The notes under the pieces were generated by a model. It was not told the DNA's origin. It ran no database searches and saw only the letters and a program-made list of their open reading frames with translations. Positions 17,301 to 23,166 of a stretch of 64,000 bases of DNA are shown piece by piece; the first letter of the stretch is position 1, and each line of letters opens with the position of its first letter. The DNA is from Planococcus rifietoensis (GTDB lineage Bacteria > Bacillota > Bacilli > Bacillales_A > Planococcaceae): NCBI RefSeq assembly GCF_001465795.2, contig NZ_CP013659.2, positions 558,001 through 622,000 of the forward strand, given 5' to 3'. Made by a program: the position numbers and the translations under genes.

Positions 17301-17471
17301 TTATTCGCCGCCGCTCGTATAGCGATTGTCGCCCATCGTGTAGTTGGCACTATCGCCGGGCTTGGCGTCGGGATGGGTCAGCTTGTCATAATAGGCAGAA
17401 GCTCTGCGCCGGCGGTCGACGATAAAGCCAAGGCCCACCACAATAGCGATCGGAACCAGAAAATATAACAT
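17301..17471 (-). CDS. Small N-anchored membrane protein
   Basis: A 56-residue protein: one N-terminal membrane helix (MLYFLVPIAIVVGLGFIV), a basic DRRRRAS cluster marking the cytoplasmic side, and a polar tail ending YTSGGE. ATG at 17471 lies six bases after AAGGAGG; longer in-frame extensions upstream have no site. No family recognised. Monocistronic, with the terminator at 17252-17293 beyond its stop. Confidence 0.72.
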   Translation of the reverse strand: MLYFLVPIAIVVGLGFIVDRRRRASAYYDKLTHPDAKPGDSANYTMGDNRYTSGGE

Positions 17472-17540
17472 GCAATTCCTCCTTTTTAGTAGGTGTTCGC
17501 AAATGAAACAAGTAAAAATAATTAAATAAGTATGCGAGCA

Positions 17541-17740
17541 GATATCTTCATTGATGACTCCATCACCAAGCAGCCGCCTCCCGCTTAGGGCATGCCTCCC
17601 GCAATGAGTCAAGAAAAACACTTGTCTCATTGCTCCGGCTCGCCCTTGTGCGCGGTTCGGCTAATAGATCTCGTTTATGCTTTTGAGTGATGAAGCATCT
17701 TTTTCTCATGTAAATCCGCTGGTGGATGATGCTTATTTAG
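17541..17740 (+). repeat. 200-bp intergenic repeat, tandem copy 1
   Basis: Almost the same sequence follows at 17758-17957. Each copy has an inverted repeat CAATGAGnCAAG...CTTGnCTCATTG in its middle and a second pair GAAGCATC...GATGNTGCTT at its 3' side. No protein gene or ribosome binding site is seen. Confidence 0.8.
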
Positions 17741-17757
17741 GCATGAGAGTGAGATAG

Positions 17758-17957
17758 ATTGTTCATTGGTGATTTCATCATGAAGCAGGCGCCTCCCGCT
17801 TTGGGCTGGCCTCCCGCAATGAGCCAAGAAGAACACTTGTCTCATTGCTTCGGCTCGCCCGTGAGCGCGGTTCGGCTTTTACATTTTATTGGATTTTTTT
17901 AGTGATGAAGCATCTCTTTTTCTTATGTTCATCCGCTGGTGGATGTTGCTTATTTAG
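17758..17957 (+). repeat. 200-bp intergenic repeat, tandem copy 2
   Basis: Direct repeat of 17541-17740, keeping the same hairpins and the same end (CCGCTGGTGGAT..TGCTTATTTAG) despite scattered substitutions. Together with the element at 18067 it fills the 810-base gene-free gap 17472-18281. Confidence 0.8.
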
Positions 17958-21748: not shown

Positions 21749-21908
21749 ATTCCCCAGCAAGTAGCGGCTCATTTGATTTGCATAGACTAAAGGAAAGTAT
21801 ATTTTATCAATAATAAACAGAAAGATGATAATAAAATATTAATTTAAATATTCAGTAATTTAGGGTTTACAAGAAATGTGAAATATTGTAGGCTGATACT
21901 ATCACGTC

Positions 21909-22129
21909 ATCTTATACAAACTATGAATTCCCATTTCGGTTAGCGCTTTATAAGCAAGTGCATCGAGTGAAGTGGATGGCTGCTTTCGGATGCGGCAGAG
22001 AACGGGGATTGCCGGTTCTGTGCAACTGGAAACTTAAACTTTGGTTGAATGTGACAGACTATAGTGCTGTGCACAGCGCCGGAAGAATTCTCCTCTGGAT
22101 AGAGGAGTCTGTTCCGGTGCTTTTTTTAG
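21909..22129 (+). ncRNA. Candidate structured RNA leader ending in a terminator
   Basis: After a very AT-rich stretch (21780-21890) the sequence becomes GC-rich and foldable. GCTGC...GCGGC (about 21979-21997) is followed by AGAACGG...CCGGTTCT (about 22000-22022), the palindrome GCTGTGCACAGC (about 22066-22077), and a long terminator. That terminator combines GCNCCGGAA with TTCCGGTGC and CTCCTCT with AGAGGAG, then T7 (22076-22128). It ends 25 bases before the gene at 22154. An extended -10 TGATACTAT lies at 21894-21902. No known riboswitch or T-box signature is recognised; it could be a cis-attenuator or a free sRNA. The 5' end is an estimate. Confidence 0.5.
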
Positions 22130-22153
22130 TACGGAAAAAAGGGAGAGAACGTT

Positions 22154-22510
22154 ATGGAAGAAAGGGGAGAACTTGTTAAGCCGTTGGGGAACGCTTGGCA
22201 AGAATCACAATCATCAGTAAAAAGCAGCACCCGAATCGGCAATGGGACTGCAGGAGGGACGATCCGGTTTCTCGGCTACGATAACGACGGTACAGCCATC
22301 AATCAAGTGGATGTTTGGATGAGCCACGAAGAGCTGCCTGTTTTTATCCAGGCGCTTGTCACCCACCCAATGCCGCTGCCGATCGACTACCTGCAGACAG
22401 CTGAACCCCATGAAAACGGGTTTTGGGTACGGATCCGTTGCCATGAGTCACCGAAAGTATTCGTTTCAAGGCTGAGTTCAGCGATTGGCTGCCTGGAACA
22501 GCCAGCGTAA
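22154..22510 (+). CDS. Hypothetical 118-residue protein
   Basis: An unrecognised soluble protein. It begins with a polar, Ser-rich stretch, then has a compact mixed region (GTIRFLGYDNDGTAINQVDV near residues 35-54, and a PMPLPIDYLQ turn near 75). There is no signal peptide or membrane helix. GGGAGAG lies before the ATG at 22154, just downstream of the terminator-ended leader. It heads a tight run of four small genes (spacings 33, 29 and an overlap), so they are probably an operon. Function unknown. Confidence 0.68.
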   Translation: MEERGELVKPLGNAWQESQSSVKSSTRIGNGTAGGTIRFLGYDNDGTAINQVDVWMSHEELPVFIQALVTHPMPLPIDYLQTAEPHENGFWVRIRCHESPKVFVSRLSSAIGCLEQPA

Positions 22511-22543
22511 ACAATCCAAACCAAGTGGAAGGCGGTAGTTTCA

Positions 22544-22756
22544 ATGGATAGTCGGAGTGACCTGATTAAACTGGGCGATGAAGACATTTACCTGATCCTG
22601 TACTTGTGGAAAGTGAAAGGCTATGAAACTAAAGAGTTGGCCCAGCGCTTTCATATCAGCGCTGAGTCTTTGGAGGATTTGCTGTCGGGCCATGTGAGAA
22701 GAGATTGCTACAGGGGATTCAACCGGATTGAAAAATATTTGGTGGAAACTTACTGA
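22544..22756 (+). CDS. Small helix-turn-helix-like protein, paralogue A
   Basis: A 70-residue protein with AAGGCGG upstream of the ATG at 22544. The helical pattern DEDIYLILYLWKVKGYETKELAQRFHIS resembles a helix-turn-helix of the kind that decides DNA binding (KELAQRFHISAESLEDLLSG, residues 34-53). The same plan recurs in the protein at 22916-23149: D-E-x-x-Y-x-I-L-Y, then L-x-x-x-[FY]-x-[IV]-S, then G-x-x-R-x-x-C. It has no additional domain. It could be a small regulator; the target is unknown. Confidence 0.7.
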   Translation: MDSRSDLIKLGDEDIYLILYLWKVKGYETKELAQRFHISAESLEDLLSGHVRRDCYRGFNRIEKYLVETY

Positions 22757-22785
22757 GCGGTATACTTTTGATGGGAGTGTTCAAT

Positions 22786-22941
22786 ATGGGAAACCACAAC
22801 GAGATGAAAAAAATCAGCGCTGCTTTTGCAGCCAGCTATGAGCGCTTTATTAAAGGGTATCAACAATATAAAATCGAGCGCACCCGGCAGCATCCTGATG
22901 GGGAGGTCGAACGCTATGACAACAGCACACGAGTTAAATAG
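22786..22941 (+). CDS. Small basic 51-residue protein
   Basis: The ATG at 22786 is six bases after GGGAGTG. The frame encodes 51 residues with an aromatic/basic helix (FAASYERFIKGYQQYKIERT) and no membrane segment. Its 3' end overlaps the start of the next gene (22916) by 26 bases, suggesting coupled translation. No homologue recognised; the short length keeps confidence moderate. Confidence 0.5.
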   Translation: MGNHNEMKKISAAFAASYERFIKGYQQYKIERTRQHPDGEVERYDNSTRVK

Positions 22942-23149
22942 GCTCAGCGATGAGGCCGTCTACAGCATCTTGTATTTCTATCATATTGAAGAATTTCCCG
23001 CGGAACACTTAGGCATGAAATATGGCGTCAGCAGTTTGACGATCGAAGGCATTGCTAAAGGCCGGTACCGCCCGAAATGCCACGAGAATTTCATGATCGT
23101 CGAAGGCATTTTGGAACGCCGCTTAGTGAAGCGCGCCGAAAGCCAATAA
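22916..23149 (+). CDS. Small helix-turn-helix-like protein, paralogue B
   Basis: A 77-residue protein, start ATG 22916 with GGGGAGG nine bases upstream; the frame is open further 5' but without a site. It aligns along its length with the 70-residue protein at 22544: LSDEAVYSILYFYHIE against LGDEDIYLILYLWKVK, and YGVSSLTIEGIAKGRYRPKC against FHISAESLEDLLSGHVRRDC. Both keep a Gly-x-x-Arg-x-x-Cys end to the putative recognition helix. The pair suggests duplication and perhaps heterodimer or antagonistic regulation (speculative). Confidence 0.7.
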   Translation: MTTAHELNRLSDEAVYSILYFYHIEEFPAEHLGMKYGVSSLTIEGIAKGRYRPKCHENFMIVEGILERRLVKRAESQ

Positions 23150-23166
23150 ACCGAAATTGTGTATCG

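Follow-up and report, generated by a model that had tools for sequence, protein, structure and literature searches.

A likely transcription attenuator that recurs upstream of a set of undescribed genes in Planococcus

Layout of the locus and its four small genes

The stretch of DNA analyzed here, which we call the window, comprises 64,000 nucleotides of the genome of Planococcus rifietoensis (NZ_CP013659.2; G000:C1:558001-622000). The locus of interest lies downstream of a gene that we take to be ilvA and comprises an AT-rich block, a variable leader, an element of approximately 90 nt that includes a terminator, and four small genes, all on the plus strand. The switch from AT-rich to GC-rich sequence in the leader is visible by eye. 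The AT-rich block (21845..21917) is conserved, with 88-98% identity to the window at 13 other loci, and is presumed to be a promoter/operator region. Its portion from 21845 to 21904 is 97-98% identical among loci, which is on par with the RNA element, and may hold an operator. A promoter scan found no sigma-A-like match inside 21845..21917, and the lone sigma-A-like match of that scan, at 21804-21832, is no better than those found in shuffled sequences.

The remainder of the leader is conserved unevenly. A variable 5' part (21918..22033; 62-90% identity) sits between the conserved stretches 21845-21904 and 22040-22129, the latter of which is 95-97% identical among loci, with 81% identity in the terminator loop. 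The initial annotation had described the leader as a multi-hairpin sequence that ends in a strong terminator. The terminator bears this out: the intrinsic terminator at 22076..22128 has a predicted folding energy of -27.8 kcal/mol (z -5.59), and 0/200 shuffled sequences are equally stable. As for the hairpins, the last one, adjoining the terminator, is conserved and shows covariation, as described below, whereas the stability of 21905-22036, a segment that overlaps the variable part, is at chance level (z -1.54; 15/200 shuffles). The z-score of the whole leader, -3.79, presumably comes from the terminator.

A BLASTN search with the leader, run against 100 genomes, returned matches in 21, none of them outside the genus. 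At fourteen places, including the window's own, the match spans almost the entire query and the gene order is identical. Nine other places match only approximately 45-55 nt of the leader and are located elsewhere, and a relative of the 118-residue protein, P1, is encoded downstream at 9/9 of them. A leader peptide was considered and appears unlikely, since reading the sequences revealed no start codon that is both conserved and preceded by a ribosome site.

Four closely spaced open reading frames follow the terminator, as the initial annotation had stated, and encode proteins of 118, 70, 51 and 77 residues: P1 (22154..22510), P2 (22544..22756), P3 (22786..22941) and P4 (22916..23149), the last two of which overlap at 22916-22941. 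All four are present at 14/14 loci, the window included, these loci having been chosen for the leader match there; P3, a conserved small protein, is partial (residues 9-50) in locus L013. For 13 pairs compared with the window, dN/dS is in most cases well below 1, at 0.07-0.42 for P1, 0.05-0.77 for P2, 0.19-1.21 for P3 and 0-0.11 for P4 (two undefined). Judged by their sequences, the small genes appear to be mostly under purifying selection.

None of the encoded proteins had initially been assigned to a recognized family, and the 118-residue protein had been taken for an unknown partner of the others. That assessment of P1 can be revised. The window's P1 has 0 matches to the Pfam family DUF1259 (PF07485) at E<=1; in a set of P1-family sequences (A2), the paralogues of which are 25-30% identical to P1, 9/11 members match PF07485 at E<=1, the best at 3.9e-11. 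By this family comparison, P1 is probably a divergent DUF1259-like protein, and its family, of which five members were found in the same genome, is itself a recurrent target of the RNA element. The predicted fold of P1 is bb-alpha-bb-alpha, with residues 1-33 below pLDDT 50; it has no significant structural match in the PDB (best E 0.039), and no PDB sequence match below E 0.6 was found.

For the 70-residue protein, P2, comparison with Pfam HTH families yields sub-threshold matches only. The proposed paralogy of P2 and the 77-residue P4 is well founded, with 18/66 residues identical in a gapless alignment (E 5e-12), and the G-x-x-R-x-x-C motif that had been pointed out is conserved as G49, R52 and C55, each invariant in 24 sequences. 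The helix-turn-helix-like segment is likewise recovered in the AlphaFold model of P2 (pLDDT 89.1), which places helices 29-36 and 40-47 in an HTH arrangement. The best Foldseek matches of the model are mostly HTH domains, none of them significant (best E 0.32), and the model assigns P2 an HTH fold. A protein search produced 23 clusters, the named ones of which are all Planococcus apart from one metagenome-assembled genome (MAG) labelled Bacillota, and the pair was seen only at the window's type of locus. The HTH genes are real but peripheral, and the leader is of more interest than the tiny genes behind it. Elsewhere in the window, at 17301-17845, there are two similar minus-strand open reading frame stretches that both start with MRQVFFL.HCGR...SGRRLL and are perhaps a duplicated non-coding repeat.

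Anatomy and recurrence of the RNA element

A covariance model (R2) was built from the 3' module shared by 28 leaders. It places the RNA element, consisting of a hairpin and the terminator, at 22034..22126 with 87.3 bits and an E-value of 2.8e-21, the window's copy being among the 28 sequences used to build the model. The hairpin (22050..22075) is composed of a lower UGU/ACA stem, an upper NCAG/CUGN stem, a bulged A at 22058, a C-G closing pair and a hexaloop, NAUAGN, at 22060-22065. The consensus reads GGY-4 nt-UGU-1 nt-NCAG-A-C-NAUAGN-G-CUGN-2 nt-ACA-A[A/C]-GCCG..., and its 3' end (GCCG...) is the 5' arm of the terminator. The proposed antiterminator (22042..22081) would extend the hairpin by pairing GGU at 22043-22045 with GCC at 22078-22080 and has a folding energy of -8.5 kcal/mol as drawn. 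This anatomy was derived from 105 copies, 62 of which are non-redundant at 85%. Among those 62, loop columns 31-33 are T in 60, A in 60 and G in 62, and the GG is kept in 61, although the terminator has no need of it. Conservation falls mainly on the apical loop, the bulge and the GG/CC base; columns 22, 40 and 41, which form the second internal loop, vary.

Covariation was judged against shuffled and slid controls. In the alignment of 105 copies, the positions of the hairpin and the proposed GGY/GCC helix are paired in 95.6% of cells, compared with 88.0% in column shuffles, the covariation score is 0.277 compared with 0.140, and 101 cells are changed on both sides compared with 31. Individual pairs illustrate this: 18:43 is GC in 71 and AU in 24 copies, 19:42 is UA in 67 and CG in 17, and 23:39 is AU in 17, UA in 17, CG in 14 and GC in 14, being unpaired in 28 of 103 copies. 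Because alignment columns 1-50 are almost free of gaps, the hairpin counts are not an artefact of gaps fitted to the structure. In a structure-blind MAFFT alignment of the 28 leaders the signal is weaker and still present, with 93.2% of cells paired versus 89.2% and a covariation score of 0.215 versus 0.137; double-changed pairs number 7 versus 3.8 in shuffles, and further pair types (14 versus 14.1) show no excess. GGY:GCC pairs occur in 99.4% of cells among 103 distinct copies and vary on one side only. This near-invariance means that the case for the helix is one of invariance and logic rather than covariation, and the GG could be read directly rather than paired.

A covariance search across the family, which the initial annotation had put forward as a check on the leader, finds the element with its covarying hairpin well beyond this locus. 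Among 150 relatives, 77 have a match at E<=0.1, including 46/46 genomes of the genus; a match that is strong (defined by E-value, as a best match with E<1e-10) occurs in 42 of those 46, and all 42 lie below 1e-14. When 261 family genomes are considered, 79 have a match at E<=1e-3 and 46 have one below 1e-10, these 46 being the 42 genomes of the genus Planococcus and 4 others. The remaining 33 of the 79 have only weaker matches (E 5e-8 to 1e-3), and 29 of the 33 are outside the genus. With the cut-off at E<=1e-3, each genome of the genus yields 1-10 matches, which may include bare terminators; copy numbers outside the P. rifietoensis genome are judged by E-value.

Four genomes of the genus (G014, G015, G029 and G030) have as their best match (E 5e-8 to 2e-7) a P1 leader in which the terminator has been kept and the hairpin lost. 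These are P1 leaders at nrd loci (L043, L042, L044 and L048, respectively) that lack approximately 24 nt comprising the hairpin, and inspection by eye suggests a deletion between two CTG repeats. The P. rifietoensis genome has a second P1-family member (L029; C1:3031696-3032214) that follows nrd genes and precedes a pabA-like gene, and in its own element the lower stem is changed on both sides, to UGG/CCA in place of UGU/ACA.

A pattern scan that is blind to genes, applied to 84,980 genomes (one per species), returned 73 matches in 69 stretches, all of them in Planococcus, Planomicrobium or other Bacillales. Planococcus or Planomicrobium account for 62 of the 69 stretches; the 7 from elsewhere in Bacillales belong to Sporosarcina koreensis, Alkalicoccus (4, one of them a MAG), Evansella clarkii and a Bacillus-labelled MAG. 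A T-run follows within 75 nt in 71 of the 73 matches. A phage origin was considered and rejected, the exact pattern being absent from viral contigs. Could the copies simply be ordinary constitutive terminators that resemble one another by chance? Matches in the P. rifietoensis genome that score 29.6 bits or less do align without the hairpin where shown. The same genome has six intact copies with the hairpin, at 44-87 bits, and the gap between 44.4 and 29.6 bits (the 29.6-bit match has no hairpin), the covariation of the hairpin and the gene-blind scan contradict this explanation for the strong copies and leave it scarcely credible. That the element exists and recurs is well established.

The initial annotation had noted that the leader contains no known riboswitch motif, and this is upheld by Rfam 15, in which no family matches the window at its gathering threshold. 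At E<=5, the window has only sub-threshold, implausible matches, one of which is mir-263 over the terminator at 17.9 bits against a cut-off of 51.3, and at E<=2 none of 20 loci has a match at the element. In the vicinity of another copy, at L114:424-513 on the minus strand and some hundreds of bases away from the element, the Rfam pan motif (RF01749) matches with 56.6 bits. We found no description of the element in the open-licence PMC literature. The element is new in that it is in no RNA family library searched.

Target genes and the proposed mechanism

The copies of the element precede a consistent set of genes. In the pattern scan, one of four gene families lies within 1.3 kb downstream in 72 of 73 matches; for the 73rd, the available sequence stops after 24 nt. 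The nearest family is ZnRib64 in 31, DUF1259-like in 22, MpsC in 11 and GNAT in 8, and all 7 stretches outside Planococcus and Planomicrobium precede a ZnRib64 gene. This sample shares most of its genomes with a set of 86 loci (80 hand-picked among the matches listed plus 6 from the P. rifietoensis genome), and the collection scanned may omit the window's nearest kin. In those 86 loci, again with 80 taken from the matches listed, the nearest family is ZnRib64 in 40, a RibT-like GNAT in 13, MpsC (PF10057) in 11, DUF1259-like in 9, R110 in 6, DUF7662-GNAT in 4, and DUF421-like, S85 and M188 in 1 each. The median distance from the element to the start of the nearest family gene is 38 nt (range -82 to 287), and at least two target families occur together within 2.4 kb in 30 of these 86 loci, 80 of which come from the matches listed. 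Since these 86 loci also served to define the families, the 86/86 association is circular.

ZnRib64, R110, S85 and M188 are names coined in this analysis. Pfam names of the target families were taken from one representative each, the DUF1259 representative being below the cut-off, and the representatives of R110, S85 and M188 have no convincing Pfam match. The RibT and DUF421 assignments are our assumption, and we take MpsC (PF10057) to be the family formerly named DUF2294. At five loci (L134, L159, L165, L182 and L188), two tandem copies of the element are present approximately 460 nt apart; in the first three of these, the first copy precedes ZnRib64 and the second precedes MpsC.

These associations bear on the notion that the element is a small RNA family, in which it would yield a stable terminated RNA and any read-through would be incidental. 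The nearly universal terminator, with a T-run within 75 nt in 71 of 73 pattern matches, and the conserved loop would be in keeping with such a family. Against it, 72 of the 73 matches are upstream of one of four families, and the sequence 5' of the element at the window's locus is variable, unlike the body of a small RNA; we regard a small RNA family as very unlikely.

The element is instead likely an attenuator. On balance, with confidence and doubt about equal, we propose that the leader ends in a transcription attenuator that belongs to a family of such elements and that a factor acting in trans, most likely a protein that binds RNA, frees the operon. Our starting points are observations: the recurrence of the element, its conservation, the covariation of its hairpin, its terminator and its consistent gene associations. 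By default, the terminator would form and transcription would stop before the first gene. The factor would read the bulged A and the NAUAGN loop and hold the extended hairpin with GGY...GCC closed, whereby the 5' arm of the terminator would be taken up; with that arm occupied, no terminator would form and the operon would be read. The several copies per genome, upstream of DUF1259-like, CxxC/His, MpsC (PF10057) and RibT-like GNAT genes and a few others, would then constitute one regulon.

We infer the switching, its direction and the factor, including its protein nature. If GGY pairs with the GCC of the terminator 5' arm, the terminator and antiterminator folds are mutually exclusive. The mean folding energy is -22.3 kcal/mol for the terminator versus -6.3 kcal/mol for the antiterminator as drawn, and the terminator is the more stable in 62/62 copies, so that termination is expected by default from the folding energies. 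The system is thus probably OFF by default and switched on by a factor. A more general upstream antiterminator that copies the 3' arm of the terminator within 150 nt was rejected, with a mean z of 0.06 and 2 of 52 copies below -2, the score having taken in 52 of the 62 non-redundant copies. An upstream copy of the terminator 3' arm was seen by eye in some nrd-locus leaders.

Several candidates for the factor were considered. P1 as the sole regulator is rejected because genome G018 has the element and no P1 match. A BglG-type CAT domain (PF03123) is rejected because it is absent from 17 of the 46 genomes with a strong element, namely 13 of the 42 genus genomes and G056, G114, G292 and G293; it is present in the other 29, P. 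rifietoensis included. An ANTAR domain (PF03861) is found in 0 of these 46 genomes, 14 control genomes also being without a match, and within the genus it occurs only in G029, which itself has no strong element.

ZnRib64 is a small CxxC/His protein with no variation at H7, H13, C22, C52 and C55 across 12 aligned sequences, and no PDB sequence match below E 0.6 was found for it. It could be conceived of as an RNA-binding antiterminator of a new, very small class, an autoregulated hub acting on its own and all other leaders. Of 261 genomes, 46 carry ZnRib64 and 46 carry the strong element, with 45 carrying both, and ZnRib64 is absent from three of the four genus genomes that have no strong copy; this overlap is partly trivial because the two are neighbors. 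As an obligatory partner ZnRib64 is rejected, since G008 has the element without ZnRib64, G015 has ZnRib64 without a strong element, and the only match in G018 has an in-frame stop. This stop weakens the case for ZnRib64 as the antiterminator, which we consider improbable.

If the factor is not a protein, the approximately 45-nt element could be a riboswitch, that is, a small aptamer for a metabolite or ion that blocks the terminator on binding. The architecture resembles that of terminator-coupled ON switches, several copies per genome precede one gene set, two acetyltransferase families are among the targets, and the two protein families tested, CAT and ANTAR, gave no partner. Nevertheless, conservation is mainly confined to a single apical loop, a single bulge and the GG/CC base while the second internal loop varies, and the element has no Rfam family match. 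The compact conserved loop fits a protein site, although it might also fit a small ligand, and we consider a riboswitch possible yet clearly less probable than protein-mediated attenuation.

Sigma-B was examined as a common denominator of the copies and rejected: with a relaxed pattern, sigma-B-like sites lie within 400 nt in only 13 of 55 copies, compared with a mean of 3.85 and a maximum of 7 in shuffles and 0 on the reverse strand, which is an enrichment that is far from general. For five copies (L111, L114, L117, L147 and L093), a script located such a site 14-85 nt upstream; if the sites are promoters, little sequence ahead of the element is needed. At L037, L042, L044, L048 and L093, good sites of this type (GTTTAA or similar, 12-15 nt, GGGTAT) were noted, by eye except for L093, which was found by script.

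The initial annotation had suggested that an attenuated operon encoding a duplicated small regulator would be new. Attenuation is well supported as a reading; the novelty lies in the recurring attenuator rather than in the HTH pair. The element looks like an RNA switch shared by an undescribed set of genes. One RNA element that unites several uncharacterised families would imply common control and hence a testable common role, the search for the trans-acting factor would lead to a new RNA-binding antiterminator or to a new class of riboswitch, and the compact element is fit for a simple reporter assay.

Comparison with known systems

Leader hairpins followed by terminators are known from other systems. 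The yjbJ motif is an orphan riboswitch candidate that is made up of a pair of hairpins, of which the second resembles a terminator, in front of a gene whose role is unclear; it occurs in Streptococcus only (PMC11109978). The element shares the two hairpins, the terminator-like second one and the position before a gene of unclear role, and differs in being found in Planococcus and its relatives. The string 'planococc' is absent from the main text of PMC11109978 and PMC8632094.

In the LoaP-dfn system, a small leader hairpin is likewise combined with a terminator. LoaP binds this hairpin, which is of the UNCG type and is found in two large antibiotic operons, and promotes read-through of the terminator (PMC12691694). 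By analogy, the element could be a recruitment hairpin through which a LoaP-like NusG paralogue or other factor rides RNA polymerase through the terminator with no competing antiterminator fold, and the hairpin and terminator do coexist in many predicted folds. The loop of the element, however, is NAUAGN, with T-A-G at columns 31-33, rather than UNCG-type, its hairpin abuts the terminator, and the invariant GG would be left without explanation. A recruitment hairpin is unlikely in our view.

With the ANTAR systems (EutV/NasR/AmiR), the element shares a conserved hairpin loop just before a terminator and a motif that is regulon-wide. ANTAR RNA consists of two hairpins whose hexaloops have A at position 1 and G at position 4 (PMC3369931), whereas the element has one covarying hairpin with the hexaloop N-A-U-A-G-N.

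The antiterminator proposed here resembles the RAT of the BglG-SacY-LicT systems in being a hairpin that has a GG/CC base and is interrupted by two asymmetric internal loops. Its 3' side would overlap the 5' arm of a terminator that wins unless the other fold is stabilized. The element differs from RAT in its sequence, its bulged A and its conserved NAUAGN loop. The targets found here, unlike those of BglG-SacY-LicT, are not PTS or sugar genes. The overlap of RAT with a terminator is described in PMC9981650, and it is this kind of overlap that we propose for the element.
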